Of a stretch of DNA of 64,000 nucleotides, positions 7,094-42,418 are shown one piece after another (position 1 is the first letter of the stretch; each line of letters starts with the position of its first letter). The notes under the pieces are model-generated. The model was not told the DNA's origin. It saw only the letters and a list, made by a program, of their open reading frames with translations, and did no database searches. Origin of the DNA: an uncultured Rubritalea sp. (GTDB lineage Bacteria > Verrucomicrobiota > Verrucomicrobiia > Verrucomicrobiales > Akkermansiaceae); contig CAKZNV010000183.1 in assembly GCA_937132085.1 (NCBI GenBank), forward strand, positions 1-64,000. Reading direction: 5' to 3'. The position numbers were made by a program, and so were the translations under genes.

Positions 7094-7323
7094 CTAGATC
7101 TCGCATGATACTCCCCCAGTAACTGTGGTCAAGCTAACAGAAGTTTCGACGCTAGGAAAAATGTTAGAGGCTATTTGATATAACACACCATCTACAACAG
7201 CAGTTACACCTCCTTCAGAAGCTAAAGCCTCTTTATAGCTGCACGAGAGGCCTTACTAGCCAGACGCTCAATACGACTATTCACCATATCTACAGGTTCA
7301 GTCATCATGTCCTTTTTAGTCAT
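7094..7323 (-). pseudogene. Small frameshifted ORF remnant
   Basis: An ATG at 7323 opens a frame (MTKKDMMTEPVDMVNSRIER, then LASKASRAAIK) that hits a stop near 7230. Adding one base there joins it to a second open frame (EALASEGGVTAVVDGVLYQI, then about 23 more residues) that ends at the TAG at 7094-7096. The total length of 230 bases is one short of a multiple of three, as expected for a single-base loss in a gene of about 76 residues. The protein is not recognised. It could be a decayed small gene or a sequencing error. Confidence 0.4.
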
Positions 7324-7350
7324 CTTTTATACTATTCAATAACTACCATC

Positions 7351-7920
7351 TTGTCAAATTCATCTAGGCGCAGTGATACGCTAACTTTAATTGGCTCATG
7401 CACTCAACTCCAACACGAAATCAGTTTCAAACTTTGGGATATTGTTTATACTCATCATGTGCCTCGTATCTATTTTCAACCAATCAAAGCCAAGACGCTG
7501 TTTACTCTGCAGAACTATGCTGAGGTTTATAGTGATGAAAAATTGATCTACCTCGTGAGCGGGAAGATCACGCATGACTTCAAAATCCGCTCACCTATGG
7601 GTAATACCCTCTGCTACGAACAGATTAAGAAGAAATGGTTCATGCCCATGTCTGCCTCTCTTTATGGACTCAATGGTAAGGAACTCAGAACAGATTGCCG
7701 CATCAACATCCAGCGTAGACGATGGGGAGCTGAACGAAACATCATGGAAATGCACCTTCAGATCACCAAGCGAGCCTACAGCAACGAATATTTCACCATC
7801 ACTCACCGAGACTACTGGAACAAACTAGAGATCGAATCAACAGACTCAAAGAATGACCTCTACCTCGCTATCTGGTGGTGTTTTAACTACTGGTATAGAC
7901 GAGGTAATCAGAACAGTTGA
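7351..7920 (+). CDS. Hypothetical protein, possibly LURP-one-like
   Basis: A 189-residue protein not firmly recognised. It has no signal peptide or membrane helix. The middle (LIYLVSGKITHDFKIRSPMG, then NTLCYEQIKKKWF) has the repeated short-strand style of LURP-one/tubby-like folds, but this is a weak resemblance. The only upstream start is TTG, with no clear ribosome binding site, so the N-terminus is uncertain. It ends 45 bases before the esterase fusion on the same strand. Confidence 0.55.
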   Translation: MSNSSRRSDTLTLIGSCTQLQHEISFKLWDIVYTHHVPRIYFQPIKAKTLFTLQNYAEVYSDEKLIYLVSGKITHDFKIRSPMGNTLCYEQIKKKWFMPMSASLYGLNGKELRTDCRINIQRRRWGAERNIMEMHLQITKRAYSNEYFTITHRDYWNKLEIESTDSKNDLYLAIWWCFNYWYRRGNQNS

Positions 7921-26907: not shown

Positions 26908-27957
26908 ATGAAGACACTATTATCATATGCCCTTTTACTTGGCTTGACCTCGTTTGGCAACGCAGAGCAGGCACAGCCTGAGAAAGCAGAAACACCAACT
27001 AAGCCAATTGAAGTCACCGAACTCACCCAGGTTGAGTTTGAGGTAAAGGTGGCAAACTTACTAAAGACTAATGCTCTAACTAAAGAGAAAGTCCTAGAGC
27101 TATACTCTCTAGCTAAGAAGTATCCTAAGGCTAAAGGAGCCGCGTATGTCAGCTTCCAAAACTATCATTACGAACATAACCCGAAAAAGAAACAAGAGAA
27201 GCTGACCTACTTTATGAGTCAGTATATCGATAGTGACCAGATAAACTATATACTTTATTCTTTGATTCAGAGCTATTCTAATGAAGTGCCAAAGTTGATG
27301 CACTTGGTGATGCTAGGGTCTAACAAAAAGGAAAACCGTCATGCCGCTGCTTTTGCTTTAGCAAGCTGGAAGCATCGTATGATGAGAATGATTGTGACCC
27401 ACCCTAATGTGGTTAAATTTCAAACGGCCGAACTCATTTCAATGTATAATTCAATTATCGACACCCCCGGAATGAACGAACGTATTTTGAAAAAATCAAA
27501 GGCGGCTCTTTATATGCTAGAGACCTTCTCAATTGGCTGTGAAGCTCCTGAAATCATCGGCACAGATCATGAGGACAAAGAATTCAAACTCAGTGACTAC
27601 CGAGGAAAGGTGGTGCTAGTTGATTTTTGGGCTGATTGGTGAGGACCTTGTAAAGCTATGCTTCCTCACGAGCGGTCGCTCGTGAAGGAACTAGGTAATG
27701 ACTTTGCCATCGTAGGAATCAATGACGACTCTAAGGAAAAGTTAGTCGAAATGGTCAATGACGGAACAACTACCTGGAGGAACTTCACCAACAAACAAAA
27801 GAATGGTAAAATTTCTGACCAATGGGGAGTCAGAGGTTGGCCCACTATCTACTTGCTAGATCAGAAAGGAATCATCCGCTATAAAGGAGTCAGAGGAGAA
27901 GAGCTAGAAAATGCAGTTAAGGAACTTATTGCTCAAGGTCAGAACATTGAAAAATAA
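26908..27957 (+). CDS. Probable selenoprotein: TlpA/thioredoxin-like with UGA-encoded Sec
   Basis: An open frame runs from ATG 26908 to TAA 27957, interrupted only by TGA at 27640-27642 (codon 245 of 349 sense positions). The residues around it read VVLVDFWADW-(TGA)-GPCKAMLPHE, so UGA replaces the first Cys of the thioredoxin WCGPC motif. A signal peptide (to about residue 20), a helical domain (about 30-205) and an AhpC/TSA-type thioredoxin fold follow, with GCEAPEI, LSDYRGK, and the cis-proline motif GWPTIYLLD after the UGA. The fold is complete only if UGA is read. A GGTC-loop hairpin lies downstream and selB is in the window. A nonsense mutation is the alternative, but it would be odd for it to hit exactly the Cys position. 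Likely a periplasmic redox protein. Confidence 0.85.
27662..27690 (+). promoter_or_regulatory. Predicted bacterial SECIS element
   Basis: The stem CACGAGC / GCTCGTG (27667-27684) closes a GGTC tetraloop and is extended below by TTCCT / AGGAA with one bulged A. The loop starts 31 bases after the UGA, within the 16-37 base range of bacterial SECIS elements. It has the G in the first loop positions and the GGUC loop used by SelB in E. coli fdhF. It lies inside the coding frame, as bacterial SECIS elements do. Confidence 0.8.
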
Positions 27958-29581: not shown

Positions 29582-29804
29582 ATCAGTGGCAGAGGAGGCG
29601 TCTTCGTGCAGAACCTAAGACTAGAAGGCTCAACTCCAGCGCAGACGTGCTATATGCGCTAGTTTGCTTCAGAGAAGCCACCCAGAAACTAGCGCATATA
29701 GCATGTCTGCGCACAGTTAAGAGTCGGCTAGTGAAGCATTGCAAGGCTGTATGCATGAACGGCGAAACGCCGTTCGGTTGGCAAGTGCAGCCTCTGCCAC
29801 TGAT
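29582..29804 (-). ncRNA. Retron msr-msd ncRNA
   Basis: About 223 bases between the SWIM gene and the RT. Terminal repeats a1 (ATCAGTGGCAGAGG, 29791-29804) and a2 (29582-29595) are a perfect 14-base inverted pair, as in retrons. The msr part has a tight hairpin GAACGGCG-TTT-CGCCGTTC (29757-29775). The msd part is a 27-bp stem with one mismatch (29639-29665 with 29686-29712) and a 20-base tip. The tip itself contains GCTTC-TCT-GAAGC, and further AACT/AGTT pairs lie below. The branch guanosine and exact msDNA ends cannot be fixed by eye. Confidence 0.9.
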
Positions 29805-29844
29805 GTAAATTAGAGATTAGTGTATTTTCGTTAGTTGAGAAGTG

Positions 29845-31503
29845 TTAAAATAAAAATTTAAGTGATTTCAGTTTAGTCTGAGCGTCCGCCATCCGTGCTG
29901 CTAAGATATGTGCACAGGGGCCCTTCATGAGTTTGTTTTGAGTGTAGAAATTACAGTTACAGATTGCTTCGACCATCCTCTCGTCAGTATCGATCTTTAA
30001 TCTAACAGCATGCACTCGCTTGCCTTCTTTGACAGTAGAGGTGAGGACTTTCATCTCTCCTTCTAGCTTGGATGCTACATCCACATTTCCTTGATCCACG
30101 AGTCGCTGAGCGTCTTGCTCGCGATCATTGGTATAGCGTAATTTATCCATAGGCAGAGGATCAGCTGCTAGCTCTCTACTACGCCAAAGCTTATTCCCTC
30201 CGTCATAGATCACCCTACCCTCTTGTGTCGCTATCCCTAACGCCCCGAGGACAATGCTTTTTTCCATACCAAGAGACTTCGCAATTGCCTCAGCAGTAGC
30301 TGACCAAGTCCTACGTAATTCTGAAATCACCATGCTTACTTGTTCTGTAGAAACTTCAGCTCGCGGAGCTAATAAATCAAAATTTCCAGCTCTTGACCAA
30401 TCATTCGCTGTCCAGCCGGAGAGGCCTAGCGTGAACTCCATATCACCCATGTCCACTCTCCAGAAACTAGGCATTCCATTTCCTAACAGACTCACATGAA
30501 CCATTCGAGCTACTGGGATCAGCCTCTCTAGGCTAGATAATCTACGCCTACCCCACAGTCTGATAGTCTGCTCAGAGTCCCCTAGATACACAGATCTGGA
30601 GCAGTTGATTTTATGTCCCCAAGGATCGACCTCAATAACTACTGGTTGCCCAGGCTTCAGATGGAAACGCAATGACCGTGGCCCATGCTTCTCTTTTTTC
30701 CTCCGTAAATGGAATAAGATGTTATGCAAATCCACTGGATGCAGTTGGATCTCTGCAGCAGACATCGTCTGAGCAGCGCTGACCTGTAAAAAACCACGCA
30801 CCCAGGTATCAGGTAAATCAATTTTTACCTCTCGGTGGCTTTCATCCTGACCTGTCTCTATAGAAAAACCCTCGGGATCGATCGTTAGAAATGTGTCTTT
30901 GTAAGTGCGTATCTTTTGAAACTCATCATACAGAGCAGCCGAGTAGTCCACATTAGTCGTCCCACAAGAGAAATCCCCCAGCGAATCAAACACATTATGG
31001 CTACAGGCTAATCTCCCATACGATGATTCATCCACGCTGAAGCATTCAAATGCGATCTCATCTGGGTGAATCGTAATCACAGGATCTAACACATACCACC
31101 AGTCACGATTTGCAGTGTAGAGGTATTGATAATACTTGTTTCTAGCTTGGTAAAAGGGCTGAAGATGCTGAAGCTCCGTTTGCTGGATCGATCTCATTTC
31201 AGAGTTGAGCTTTTCGATTTCCTGCTGATTAGCAGATTGCTTGCTCATGAACTCTACCAGCCAGCCCTCTTCTTGTGACTTGAGCCAGTCTTGATATTCT
31301 GTGGAACTCCTCGGTGTGTAGTTCAGATCCGAAATCACAATGTCATGCAGAGCTGAAATCGCCTCACGATACGGAAGCTTCTTGTTCAGCTTGCCATGAA
31401 ACCATGCGGGATCGCGGCGAGCATCTGGCACGAACTTCATCTCAGTCTTACCACCCCCGTTCGAGACCTTAGAATGGCCACGGTATTTGTATTCAAAAAT
31501 CAT
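29845..31503 (-). CDS. Retron-associated winged-helix SWIM zinc-finger protein
   Basis: A 552-residue protein. Residues 1-390 are not recognised. A winged helix follows at about 395-450 (RRTWSATAEAIAKSLGMEK, then VLGALGIATQEGRVIYDGG). Near the C-terminus is a SWIM zinc finger with the CxCxnCxH pattern (CNC...GPCAH), known to bind DNA or protein. It starts four bases inside the stop of the upstream WGR gene (ATGA), so the two are coupled. It ends 41 bases before the retron a1 repeat. It fits the WHSWIM component I recall for type XIII retrons. Activity is unknown, and no nuclease or membrane effector is visible. Confidence 0.8.
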   Translation of the reverse strand: MIFEYKYRGHSKVSNGGGKTEMKFVPDARRDPAWFHGKLNKKLPYREAISALHDIVISDLNYTPRSSTEYQDWLKSQEEGWLVEFMSKQSANQQEIEKLNSEMRSIQQTELQHLQPFYQARNKYYQYLYTANRDWWYVLDPVITIHPDEIAFECFSVDESSYGRLACSHNVFDSLGDFSCGTTNVDYSAALYDEFQKIRTYKDTFLTIDPEGFSIETGQDESHREVKIDLPDTWVRGFLQVSAAQTMSAAEIQLHPVDLHNILFHLRRKKEKHGPRSLRFHLKPGQPVVIEVDPWGHKINCSRSVYLGDSEQTIRLWGRRRLSSLERLIPVARMVHVSLLGNGMPSFWRVDMGDMEFTLGLSGWTANDWSRAGNFDLLAPRAEVSTEQVSMVISELRRTWSATAEAIAKSLGMEKSIVLGALGIATQEGRVIYDGGNKLWRSRELAADPLPMDKLRYTNDREQDAQRLVDQGNVDVASKLEGEMKVLTSTVKEGKRVHAVRLKIDTDERMVEAICNCNFYTQNKLMKGPCAHILAARMADAQTKLKSLKFLF

Positions 31504-34500
31504 ACTCGCACCTCCCTTTTTTCAACAGCTAAAACCTTCAACTTAGCCACTTGATTTGGCCAATCTTTCTGAACCATGAAAATAGCCTCCAAGTAGGCAG
31601 CCTTGTCGCCTATCGCACAAGTCACAACGTAATCATTCCATAAATTTAATGCCAAGGCAGCCACTCGCTCATCTTTTTTAGCCTCGATTTTGAGGAATCC
31701 GAGCACACGATCCTTAGCCACTCTACCCGCACTAACAGCTCCCATCACTGTGCGGAAATAGAACTCTAGATTCAAAATGATTTCTGGTTGATCGCTTGCG
31801 GTCTGCTTTAGGAAATGAGTCGCAAATTGTTGCATCTCACGTGTCGGGTGCTGGCTCAGCTTCATCATGTAGACCTCGCCATCTTCCTCTCTAAACCGCT
31901 TCGTGATCATTTCCCGGCCAAAGTCTTGCACGCTTGGCTTCACACTATCACAGAGATCTACTAATGCTTCAACAGTCCAACGCTCTTCAGGAACACGATT
32001 GCGTAGAAACTCCATGCCGAACTCCCTCACCTCAGTCCACTCCGACTCCACTAGCGGCCGAGTCTCAGATAGCTGTATCAGCAGTCTCTCTGGATTCTCA
32101 TCCAGATGCCCTAGTATCGCCTCTCTTAGTTTAAAGTGAGGATGATTCACCCATTCTACAAGTTGTAGTAGAGCCTCATTCTGAAGCTCTGTCTCTTCTT
32201 CTAGTAAATAGAATCCCAAAACATGAGCTGCCGAGTATTTAGACTTCAGCATTCTTCGGAATGAATCATCTGGAATCACTTTTAGTGAGCTGCCCAATGG
32301 TCCCAAAAGAATAGCCAACACGTCGTCATGAATACCTTCTGAAGTTTCCTTTCGTAGCACTGCAGAGTAAAGAGACATTACCATATCTTGACCGAAGCTC
32401 TGCTGAGCCTTCACTAGTCTCTCCAGAACTACTAGAATCCCCTTGCGGAGTTCTCTTGATTTAGAAGTGCAGCAGCTAGCGATGAGATCCGCCTGATCCA
32501 CTAATTGAGCATCGCTAAACGACTCTAACAACAGCATGCCTTGTTCGCGAATAATTGAAGAATCAGACTCAATAGCCTCGACCACTACTTGCTCAGGAAC
32601 TGGCTTTCCAGCCCTAGCGTATTCACCATAGCAATATAGAGCAAACCACATAGACTGTTCATCTTCAGAAGCTAATAAACGTGTCAACTCAGACTCACAC
32701 ACCACTGTCGCTGAGTTTTCTAGCTTAAGTAATTTCAATGATTCTATCGCCAACTCTGCCGATACTTCTACAGCCTCTTTAGCTGGCAACAACCTCGCCA
32801 ATTCACTAAAGATATTAGGAACTGACTTACCGAGAAATAGTCCGCGTAGCCTTTCGTGGATGTTCTTTTCACCGCTTAAGAAAATAGCAGCCAAAAACGC
32901 AGGATGCATCAGAGATAAATCAATCACCTCAGTAAGTAATTTAAAGCCAAGCTCACTAGCTTCCTCTAAATCACAAAGGATCAGAGCCTCTAGCAGCTCG
33001 AAATCTGGTTTACCTGCGTCCCATATCGCCTCTACTAACTCTAAGCCCAATCGCTTAGTGCCAGAGAATGATGAACGAATAAATGCCACGATATCCTCAG
33101 CATTCGCCTCACTGACAAAACTTGGATTTGCCTGCCACACAGCATTAGCAAAGACATGCACTTCCTCTAATTTAGCATACTTGAGTAGATGAATAATCGC
33201 ATCTGGCGCCTGATCCCAGAACTCTGGAAATGGCTCTTCCCTTAACCCAACTACATCTCCCTCAGAAGACTCTGTTCCCGAGTATTGCCAGTTTAAACTC
33301 TGTGAGACTGTCAACCTCGTCGATTCACCTCTCATCAGCCATGTCAGGCAATAGATATTTCCATAGCGTGGAGCATGTTTAAATACATGGTTATAACTGC
33401 TTCCATCGTATTCATAAGAGCTGTATCGTTGTGCTGGATTGATAGGCGTATTCTCAGTCGCTGAAGCTAACACTCCAGTTGCCATAGTGATGTATCCACC
33501 TATATTCCCATCAGTCCCCAGCGCTGTGAAATTTCTAACAGAGCGAGCTTTAAAGTATTTCTTTGTAGCACGAGAAAACACTCCTTTTTTCAGTTCTTTA
33601 TAGCTACTACCTACTATAGTCCATGTTGTAACGAGCTTACACTTTTCGTATTCTAGTCGACTCACGAGAGCACCATACATCTGCCCATCAAACCTAGCTT
33701 CACTGAGCTTGTAGAGTAGCCGCATCAGACGAAACGAACCTTCTGCTATCTCTACAGATGCAGCAAAATCTACCAAAGCCTCTCGAATCTCGCTATCCTT
33801 CAAGCCCATGAGATAGAGAATCTCAATGTCCACGACAGATTGCTCATTTTTGTAAAATTGTTCAGATTTAAGGTAATCACTAAACTCTTCAGACTCAAGA
33901 CTGTCTCGAGTCTCCTGCGAAAGACTATCTGACTGCTCTGTGATAAACTTCTGCCTATCAGGCTCTTTCATACAGAGCATCCGAGCATCACGGATCATCC
34001 TGCTCACCGCTGGACTCTTTGCTAGAGGCTCTAGTTTGTCTAGAATCGCCGCACTCCTGTCGCTTTCCTCAGCTATATTCGCAATAGCCCAAGCCACTGC
34101 ATATTGTTCTAGTTTGTCTAAATCTGTAGAAATTTGCCTAGCGATCAATGGCAAGGCATCCTTAATTCTCAGCTGTCCAGCCCTCCAGATCACACGTGCT
34201 AGTGGCCACTCCGTTTTAGAAACTATTGGCAGCCATTGAGTCAGTCTATTCAGAATTGCTCGCTGCTGTTCTGGTGACCCTAGTGAGTCAGGATCTTGCG
34301 TATCGTCATCTAGTGTCACAGCTTCTTCAACGCTTGATTCAACCGAAGTAACAATACCCGATTGATTTGCATATCCTTTCTTCGTTTTCTCAGCGACTAG
34401 TTTCTCATATATCAACTCTGCCGCCTTAAGATCGACAGGAAATATCGTTTTTGTCCCCTCTCTCAATCTATTACCAAATCGACCATAACGAAAATTCACC

Positions 34501-34598
34501 ACGTATTCGTCTTCAGCAGATAAAATCAAATCTACTTCATAAACCTTGTCAGATTTGCCCTCCGTAAATCGAAGTTTAGCCTGTTTTAAAATACGCAC
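31500..34598 (-). CDS. Retron-associated WGR / ARM-HEAT repeat protein
   Basis: A 1032-residue protein starting at GTG. Residues about 1-85 are a WGR domain (VNFRYGRFGNRLREGTKT), a nucleic-acid-binding module also found in PARPs and in the E. coli YehI/MolR family. The remainder is almost entirely helical HEAT/ARM-type repeats (AILGHLDENPERLLIQLSET and similar), interrupted at about 330-450 by a Gly/Tyr-rich insert (SYEYDGSSYNHVF). It is first gene of the retron operon. It probably acts as scaffold or sensor with the SWIM protein (inference). WGR and SWIM proteins also pair in MoxR/VWA operons, but no MoxR or VWA gene is present here. Confidence 0.8.
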   Translation of the reverse strand: MRILKQAKLRFTEGKSDKVYEVDLILSAEDEYVVNFRYGRFGNRLREGTKTIFPVDLKAAELIYEKLVAEKTKKGYANQSGIVTSVESSVEEAVTLDDDTQDPDSLGSPEQQRAILNRLTQWLPIVSKTEWPLARVIWRAGQLRIKDALPLIARQISTDLDKLEQYAVAWAIANIAEESDRSAAILDKLEPLAKSPAVSRMIRDARMLCMKEPDRQKFITEQSDSLSQETRDSLESEEFSDYLKSEQFYKNEQSVVDIEILYLMGLKDSEIREALVDFAASVEIAEGSFRLMRLLYKLSEARFDGQMYGALVSRLEYEKCKLVTTWTIVGSSYKELKKGVFSRATKKYFKARSVRNFTALGTDGNIGGYITMATGVLASATENTPINPAQRYSSYEYDGSSYNHVFKHAPRYGNIYCLTWLMRGESTRLTVSQSLNWQYSGTESSEGDVVGLREEPFPEFWDQAPDAIIHLLKYAKLEEVHVFANAVWQANPSFVSEANAEDIVAFIRSSFSGTKRLGLELVEAIWDAGKPDFELLEALILCDLEEASELGFKLLTEVIDLSLMHPAFLAAIFLSGEKNIHERLRGLFLGKSVPNIFSELARLLPAKEAVEVSAELAIESLKLLKLENSATVVCESELTRLLASEDEQSMWFALYCYGEYARAGKPVPEQVVVEAIESDSSIIREQGMLLLESFSDAQLVDQADLIASCCTSKSRELRKGILVVLERLVKAQQSFGQDMVMSLYSAVLRKETSEGIHDDVLAILLGPLGSSLKVIPDDSFRRMLKSKYSAAHVLGFYLLEEETELQNEALLQLVEWVNHPHFKLREAILGHLDENPERLLIQLSETRPLVESEWTEVREFGMEFLRNRVPEERWTVEALVDLCDSVKPSVQDFGREMITKRFREEDGEVYMMKLSQHPTREMQQFATHFLKQTASDQPEIILNLEFYFRTVMGAVSAGRVAKDRVLGFLKIEAKKDERVAALALNLWNDYVVTCAIGDKAAYLEAIFMVQKDWPNQVAKLKVLAVEKREVRV

Positions 34599-40507: not shown

Positions 40508-42418
40508 ATGCATATTATCTTAGGCACAGCGGGTCATATCGACCACGGTAAATCTTCACTCATCAAGGCTCTCACTGGCATCGACCCAGACCGCCTTCCA
40601 GAGGAGAAAAAACGTGGCGTCACCATTGAGCTTGGATTCGCACACCTCACACTAGGTAAGCACGAGCTAGGCCTGATCGATGTCCCCGGCCATGCCGACT
40701 TTGTCAACAACATGGTCGCGGGTGTCGGCTCTCTAGATCTAGCGCTCTTCATCGTCGCAGCTGATGATGGATGGATGCCACAGTCAGAGGAACACCTGCA
40801 TATTTTAAACTATCTCGGTGTAAAAAATGTCATCATCGTCATCACTAAGAGCGATCTAGCAGAAGACCTAGAATTCACCATAGAGCTAGTCAAAGAAGAC
40901 CTCATCGGCACTAGCATAGAAGACGCCACCATCATCCCAGTCTCCTCGCACACTGGCGATGGTATCGATACTCTCAAAGCAGAAATTCTAGAACGCATCA
41001 ATGCAGGAGGCCTTCAATCATCACCGAAGCATCTTATCCCACGACTCTCGGTAGACCGCACCTTTTCACCTACTGGCATCGGCACCGTCGTCACTGGCAC
41101 ACTCACTGGTGGCACTCTGAAAAAAGGTGACACCATCAGCTGCCAACCAGAAGATCTCAGCTCTAACATTCGTGGCATTCAGAATCACTCCAGCGCTGTA
41201 GACGAAGCCCACCACGGCATGCGCACTGCTCTGAATCTCCCTGATTTAAATCTCAGCGAGCGTGGTAAAACTGGAGTCCAACGTGGCTCAGTCATCACAC
41301 TGCCAAAGACGCTCGAACCTACCAGCACTCTAGACGTCACACTCACCAGACAGGAGCGCTCAGTCACGGGGCAATCCGCCACTCAGCGTCCGCTGAAGCA
41401 TACCGAAACAGTCATCCTGCACCACGGCACCTCACGCACTAGAGCCAGAGTCATCCTACACTCACAGACTCAACTAGCACCAGGTGAAGAATGCTACGCT
41501 CAGCTCAGACTAGAAACTCCGATCACTGCCTGCGTAGCAGATCGCTTCGTCATCCGAGACGGCGCCCAACAAGGCACCCTAGCTGGCGGAACTATCCTAG
41601 ATGCAATGCCAGAACGTAGACAGTTTCGCACCGATGCTCGACTAGAATTTCTAACAACAAGAGCAGAAAACGTAGACAACTTACGCCAGATCATCCTCAC
41701 AGAGATAGCTAAGACCCCGATACTTCCAGCTCAGAAACCGATCACTAACTCACCGTTCACCGCTCATCACACTGAGCAAACCATCACCAAGCTAGTCAAA
41801 GAGAAAAAGGTCACTCAGCGTGGCGACTACGTGATAGACCCTAAAGGCTGGAAAGCGGCACTCACTAATGCTTCTAGTCTGATTAACAATTTCCATAGCC
41901 AGAATCCAGATGCACCCTCCATGCCGATTGAGAACTGGAGATCTCAGCTGATCGAGAACAACATCCACCCCACTCTCATCCCTCACATTGAGAAACATCT
42001 TACTGCGAATGGCTACTCACAGATCAAAGACGGAATCGCCAATGCTGAGCACAGCCTAGAGCTTCCTGAACATCTAACAGCTATCGCAAACACTATTCTC
42101 AGCTCCTTAAAGTCCGCTGGCCTTCAACCTCCAGCTAGAGTCGACTTAGCACCCACACCAGAAGCCCAACAGGCTCTAACATTTCTTATCCGCAGCTCAC
42201 AGATCATTGAGCTAGATCCTAAAGCGCTACTAGAAAGTTCACAGTATCAGCTAGCAAAAGAAGCCGTCATTTCTCATCTCAAGAGCGCAGAGAAAGCCAC
42301 CGCTAGCGAGATCCGCCAGCAAATCGGCACCACCCGCAAGGTCCTCATGCCTCTGCTTGAAAAGCTCGATGCTGAAGGAGTCACTGTCCGACACGATGAC
42401 TACCGCATCTTGGCTTAA
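40508..42418 (+). CDS. selB: Selenocysteine-specific elongation factor SelB
   Basis: A GTPase that brings Sec-tRNA(Sec) to the ribosome at UGA codons by binding the SECIS hairpin. It is 636 residues long. The N-terminal signature GTAGHIDHGKSSLIKALTGID (G1), RLPEEKKRGVTIELGFA (G2), DVPGHADF (G3) and ITKSDL (G4) is characteristic of SelB rather than EF-Tu or IF-2. A C-terminal part from about residue 380 holds the winged-helix repeats that bind SECIS RNA (last one ATASEIRQQIGTTRKVLMPL). It implies a working Sec system and supports the UGA reading at 27640. selA, selD and tRNA-Sec are not in this window. Confidence 0.96.
   Translation: MHIILGTAGHIDHGKSSLIKALTGIDPDRLPEEKKRGVTIELGFAHLTLGKHELGLIDVPGHADFVNNMVAGVGSLDLALFIVAADDGWMPQSEEHLHILNYLGVKNVIIVITKSDLAEDLEFTIELVKEDLIGTSIEDATIIPVSSHTGDGIDTLKAEILERINAGGLQSSPKHLIPRLSVDRTFSPTGIGTVVTGTLTGGTLKKGDTISCQPEDLSSNIRGIQNHSSAVDEAHHGMRTALNLPDLNLSERGKTGVQRGSVITLPKTLEPTSTLDVTLTRQERSVTGQSATQRPLKHTETVILHHGTSRTRARVILHSQTQLAPGEECYAQLRLETPITACVADRFVIRDGAQQGTLAGGTILDAMPERRQFRTDARLEFLTTRAENVDNLRQIILTEIAKTPILPAQKPITNSPFTAHHTEQTITKLVKEKKVTQRGDYVIDPKGWKAALTNASSLINNFHSQNPDAPSMPIENWRSQLIENNIHPTLIPHIEKHLTANGYSQIKDGIANAEHSLELPEHLTAIANTILSSLKSAGLQPPARVDLAPTPEAQQALTFLIRSSQIIELDPKALLESSQYQLAKEAVISHLKSAEKATASEIRQQIGTTRKVLMPLLEKLDAEGVTVRHDDYRILA

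Follow-up and report, generated by a model that had tools for sequence, protein, structure and literature searches.

A very probable msr-msd RNA in a type XIII retron operon, with a stem break at a fixed height among its relatives

The operon and its noncoding RNA

Retrons are bacterial anti-phage elements in which a segment of an RNA is copied into a small hairpin of DNA. In the window, by which we mean the whole 64-kb stretch of DNA that was analysed, an operon with the order WGR/HEAT gene, SWIM gene, noncoding RNA (ncRNA) and reverse transcriptase (RT) gene is found (Table 1), with the WGR/HEAT gene overlapping the start of the SWIM gene by 4 bp. Since the RT, SWIM and WGR/HEAT proteins all match PADLOC type XIII models (RT_XIII, SWIM_XIII, WGR_XIII and HEAT-ARM_XIII), we regard the operon as a complete type XIII retron, a class that is said to go back to the classification of Mestre et al. 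in 2020. The matches are full-length and fall in the same operon, and no difference from the type was found in the proteins; the likeness to type XIII rests on these proteins.

The RT matches RT_XIII at an E value of 4.1e-174, compared to 2e-89 for the next best PADLOC model, and its NAxxH (residues 230-234), YADD (338-341) and VTG (388-390) motifs are invariant among the relatives. Its nearest solved structures are headed by the Ec86 RT (E 1.5e-39), and the genome holds one such RT along with two further weak RT matches elsewhere. A PDB sequence search with the SWIM and WGR/HEAT proteins gave no significant relative. The AlphaFold model of the SWIM protein, built from a two-row alignment, is poor (mean pLDDT of 39), and its C-terminal part appears in this weak model as a winged-helix-like fold with the SWIM region.

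Table 1. Features of the retron operon and its ncRNA in the window
Feature	Position	Strand	Evidence or remark
Retron reverse transcriptase, 510 aa	28012-29544	-	PADLOC RT_XIII E 4.1e-174; RVT_1; NAxxH, YADD and VTG intact
a2 arm, CCTCTGCCACTGAT	29582-29595	-	ncRNA 3' end; pairs with a1
ACGAAG motif just before a2	29602-29607	-	CGAAG invariant in 15/15; proposed start of reverse transcription
Helix below msd stem, 3' side, CUAGU	29620-29624	-	helix 2
msd long hairpin	29639-29712	-	8 bp, A/C mismatch, 18 bp, 20-nt tip with 5-bp sub-stem
Mismatched C, msd 3' arm (G in msDNA)	29647	-	faces A 29704
Mismatched A, msd 5' arm (T in msDNA)	29704	-	stem break at same height in 15/15 ncRNAs
Helix below msd stem, 5' side, ACUAG	29728-29732	-	pairs with CUAGU 29620-29624; helix 2
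msr hairpin, GAACGGCG-TTT-CGCCGTTC (RNA GAACGGCG-UUU-CGCCGUUC)	29757-29775	-	8 bp, 3-nt loop; fold
CUUGC motif after a1	29781-29785	-	invariant in 15/15; G 29782 proposed as 2'-OH priming guanosine
a1 arm, ATCAGTGGCAGAGG	29791-29804	-	ncRNA 5' end; 14-bp perfect complement of a2; covariation
Candidate sigma-70-like promoter, TTAACA-18-TACACT	29819-29848	-	upstream of a1; weak (one found; chance expectation 0.6)
SWIM zinc-finger protein, 552 aa, type XIII accessory	29845-31503	-	PADLOC SWIM_XIII E 7.1e-217
WGR + HEAT/ARM-repeat protein, 1032 aa, type XIII accessory	31500-34598	-	PADLOC WGR_XIII E 1.1e-247, HEAT-ARM_XIII E 1.5e-24; WGR domain

The ncRNA is flanked by the SWIM and RT genes, with 40 nt from the SWIM stop to the start of a1 and 37 nt from a2 to the RT start. 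We read it on the minus strand, from 29804 to 29582, because all three protein genes lie on that strand. The preliminary description of this DNA, made from the letters of the window, had placed a perfect 14-base inverted pair at the ends of a 223-base interval between SWIM and RT, and this is borne out on the minus strand: a1 and a2 pair perfectly over 14 bp with a span of 223 and constitute the sole perfect inverted repeat of at least 14 bp with a span of 150-300 in the window. The longest inverted repeat in 2000 dinucleotide shuffles of the 300-nt gap was 11, compared to 14 in the real sequence. On the minus strand, the fold has an energy of -111.1 kcal/mol (z -8.5), which none of 200 shuffles equalled. 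The plus strand folds more strongly still (-124.2, z -10.9) with an unbroken stem, since the A-C mismatch turns into G-U there.

The msr hairpin was found at 29775-29757 as it had been described, by both fold and covariation, and it falls within the general definition of one to three hairpins of about 7-10 bp with loops of 3-10 nt (PMC6868368). The msd is one long hairpin with a mismatch, as the general retron definition has it, and its tip carries a 5-bp GCTTC/GAAGC sub-hairpin. A stem of 27 bp had been claimed; the 27 positions, the single A-C mismatch and the structured tip are all there, but they amount to 26 pairs and not 27. The same general msr-msd plan is described in the literature (PMC6868368). 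A search against Rfam at gathering and relaxed thresholds gave no retron family, only weak chance matches to microRNA and snoRNA families.

Elsewhere in the window, a thioredoxin/TlpA-like open reading frame (26908-27957, plus strand) has an in-frame TGA (27640-27642) at the first cysteine of the redox motif (WADW-TGA-GPCK). With this TGA read as selenocysteine, the product matches AhpC-TSA (E 2e-19) and the ResA/TlpA group, and a candidate SECIS, a hairpin with a GGUC loop, lies about 25 nt after the TGA (z -2.05). The window also encodes SelB (40508-42418, plus strand; TIGR00475, 306 bits, above the cut-off) and the genome has a tRNA-Sec (contig C157:8818-8908, above the Rfam cut-off), which makes selenocysteine decoding plausible here, and the reading frame probably encodes a selenoprotein.

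Relatives and covariation

A search for SWIM_XIII covered several hundred genomes from the phylum and order of the window; in the order sample, 17 of 387 genomes have it, among them the window's own. A scan of genome contigs with the RT gave one locus (L004, Leucothrix arctica), and no SWIM relative was found among viral contigs and phage records. The type XIII operon is patchy across several families and two phyla, which would fit a defence operon that moves horizontally. The nearer clade comprises 12 loci with a SWIM protein about 50% identical (L004, L035-L042, L045, L047 and L051), of which L035 is a Methylobacterium bullatum replicon. All 12 have an ncRNA in the gap between the SWIM stop and the RT start, and each shows a1/a2 repeats of 11-17 bp with a span of 221-273 nt, an msr hairpin and a long msd hairpin. 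Two of the loci have two ncRNAs, giving a comparison set of 15 (the window and 14 others), in which the 14 share 50-67% identity with the window's ncRNA.

Changes on both sides of a pair, i.e., compensatory changes, were seen in 32 of the 47 core pairs in the 15 core sequences. Standard pairs filled 92.4% of the core pair cells, compared to 74.9% in shuffled alignments and 32-44% with slid partners; the shuffles overstate the significance since the relatives share ancestry, but the slid control keeps the ancestry and agrees. The msr helix was paired in 100% of cases across the 15 sequences, with both-side changes in 4 pairs, and msd helices 3 and 4 had such changes in 15 of 17 pairs. Homologues lacking complementarity between the a1 and a2 positions had been named in advance as grounds for giving up the retron reading; instead, 11 of the 12 aligned a1/a2 pairs show compensatory changes, and 91.4% of their pair cells are standard (77.2% in shuffles). 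In every one of the 15, the core runs from CUUGC to CGAAG and measures 183-186 nt.

A covariance model from homologous loci had been proposed as a check, and the model R2, built from ten sequences with the window and its four nearest relatives held out, finds the window at 29602-29785 on the minus strand with an E value of 4.7e-42. It also matches L044, L046 and L048 of the divergent clade (E 3e-16 to 4e-8). The full model, R1, matched 11 of 15 whole genomes at E <= 0.01, solely at the retron locus. To judge from these relatives, the folded shape of the ncRNA has been kept by evolution while its letters changed. The ncRNA models did not match four divergent SWIM_XIII loci (L043, L049, L050 and L052), whose ncRNA may sit elsewhere or differ too much.

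The stem break and the tandem ncRNAs

All 15 msd stems have a single break 7-10 bp up, in the form of a 1-3-nt bulge or a mismatch. The stems pair for 7-8 bp from the base (10 in three members when wobbles are counted), break, and then pair for another 11-19 bp. The window has A/C at the break and both L041 and L042 have AA/CC there; in the other twelve it is a bulge of 1-3 nt in the 5' arm of the RNA. Since msd stems commonly carry mismatches or wobbles (PMC6868368), it is the fixed height of the break that is added here to what is known of them. The mismatch had been described as equally distant from the ends in both arms, which is true but trivially so for any 1x1 mismatch and is no evidence in itself. 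It had also been left open whether it was a natural variant or a recognition mark. Only the window has exactly A/C, and the supposed mark sits at a conserved irregularity, because every stem breaks at that height. For the same reason, we consider a structural role for it more probable than an accident confined to the window. That the A-C mismatch is a private, neutral mutation, a view that touches the recognition mark and not the retron reading, seems rather unlikely to us: the occurrence of this exact form in the window only would agree with it, as would the general presence of mismatches and wobbles in msd stems (PMC6868368), but the 15 stems are otherwise well paired and are all broken at the same height. 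The predicted msDNA has the plus-strand sequence, and the A/C of the RNA would be a G-T wobble in it. Another possibility is that MutS binds this G-T, given that in E. coli MutS is titrated by mismatched msDNAs when these are overproduced (PMC6868368).

Two complete ncRNAs precede the single RT in L045 (6651-6902 and 6911-7161) and in L051 (4182-4454 and 4462-4731), which belong to two genera. Over the msd hairpin, the first copies of the two loci are 83% alike and the second copies 78%, while first and second copies are 64-68% alike; first and second copies are separately conserved between the genera. Pairs that differ between the copies within a locus have mostly changed on both sides (7 in L051 and 11 in L045). 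The ncRNA tree groups the four tandem copies together and leaves the order among them unresolved. An old duplication is the simplest reading, with selection acting on both copies. L045 also has a 215-bp element of MITE-like look with perfect 18-bp inverted ends between its second ncRNA and the RT (7164-7378); this third inverted repeat was left out as an ncRNA since it is without the ncRNA motifs.

The retron reading and its alternatives

The best explanation of 29582-29804 on the minus strand is, with high confidence on sequence grounds, that it encodes the msr-msd ncRNA of a complete type XIII retron. This is also what the preliminary description had proposed, and the retron-type RT, the position between SWIM and RT, and the covariation of a1 and a2 support it. 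The operon content, position, fold, conservation and covariation come from the sequences, while the mechanistic steps are drawn from established retron biology. In this mechanism, a1 and a2 would anneal and the msr hairpin would be bound by the RT, with a guanosine located just inside a1 providing the 2'-OH at which synthesis begins. As CUUGC is the invariant motif just inside a1, the likely branch point and best candidate is G 29782, and the RT would likely copy the msd from beside a2, near ACGAAG. The conserved priming motif beside a1 in retrons is AGC (PMC6868368). Here the candidate motif is UGC and lies 9 nt inside a1 and not directly beside it, which makes the branch point only tentative. 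Removal of the template by RNase H would then leave a branched RNA-DNA with a long DNA hairpin containing one G-T wobble. The particle of RT and msDNA may hold SWIM and WGR/HEAT in check; once a phage disturbs the msDNA, the released proteins would kill or arrest the cell. The SWIM protein, as a putative DNA-binding protein, may read the msDNA stem, and the fixed break could help to place it there. Since the SWIM structure model is poor, we put this contact forward only by analogy with type IX retrons, where a winged-helix protein cradles the msDNA stem loop (PMC13405049). Type IX (Retron-Kva2) also has two accessory proteins, of which the winged-helix protein that touches the stem loop is one, but it has a HEPN effector and no HEPN was seen in the operon of the window. 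Retron-Eco1 (Ec86) shares a sequence-related RT, the a1/a2 repeats, an msr hairpin whose loop is UUU, and a long msd hairpin. In contrast, its accessory proteins are others, the window has UGC for AGC at the proposed priming site, and the RT of the window is longer by an N-terminal extension of about 130 aa.

It is very unlikely that the RT uses the structured RNA in some other manner, as a DRT-like scaffold or repeated template that gives no branched msDNA. The departure of the priming motif from AGC would allow it, and other defence RTs use structured ncRNAs differently (PMC12039810 and PMC12489045). However, the RT has retron-specific motifs and matches RT_XIII, and a1/a2, the msr hairpin and the long msd hairpin come in canonical order with strong covariation. 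A MITE-like mobile element or a terminator/attenuator unrelated to the RT, which the inverted ends, the high stem content and the MITE-like 18-bp inverted repeat adjoining the L045 ncRNAs might suggest, is in practice refuted by the match of the held-out model and the single locus per genome (one copy or an adjacent pair, in each case at the retron), along with the covariation and the invariant core length; no T-run terminator was found either.

The type XIII retron itself has already been named and is little studied, and the literature searched gave no paper on its mechanism or anti-phage activity. What may be new here comes down to the stem break of fixed height, the tandem ncRNA pairs and an ncRNA with no Rfam match. 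With its exact ends, strong covariation and fixed stem defect, the ncRNA model allows type XIII systems to be annotated and tests of msDNA and effectors to be designed, and the operons with two tandem ncRNAs would offer a natural way to ask what purpose the msDNA sequence serves. We tentatively suggest that an obligatory stem defect at a fixed height docks the SWIM/WGR effectors on type XIII msDNAs and that the sub-lineage of L045 and L051 makes two msDNAs, different and separately conserved, from its tandem ncRNAs with a single RT. If two msDNAs are indeed made by one RT, a single retron could sense two kinds of disturbance.
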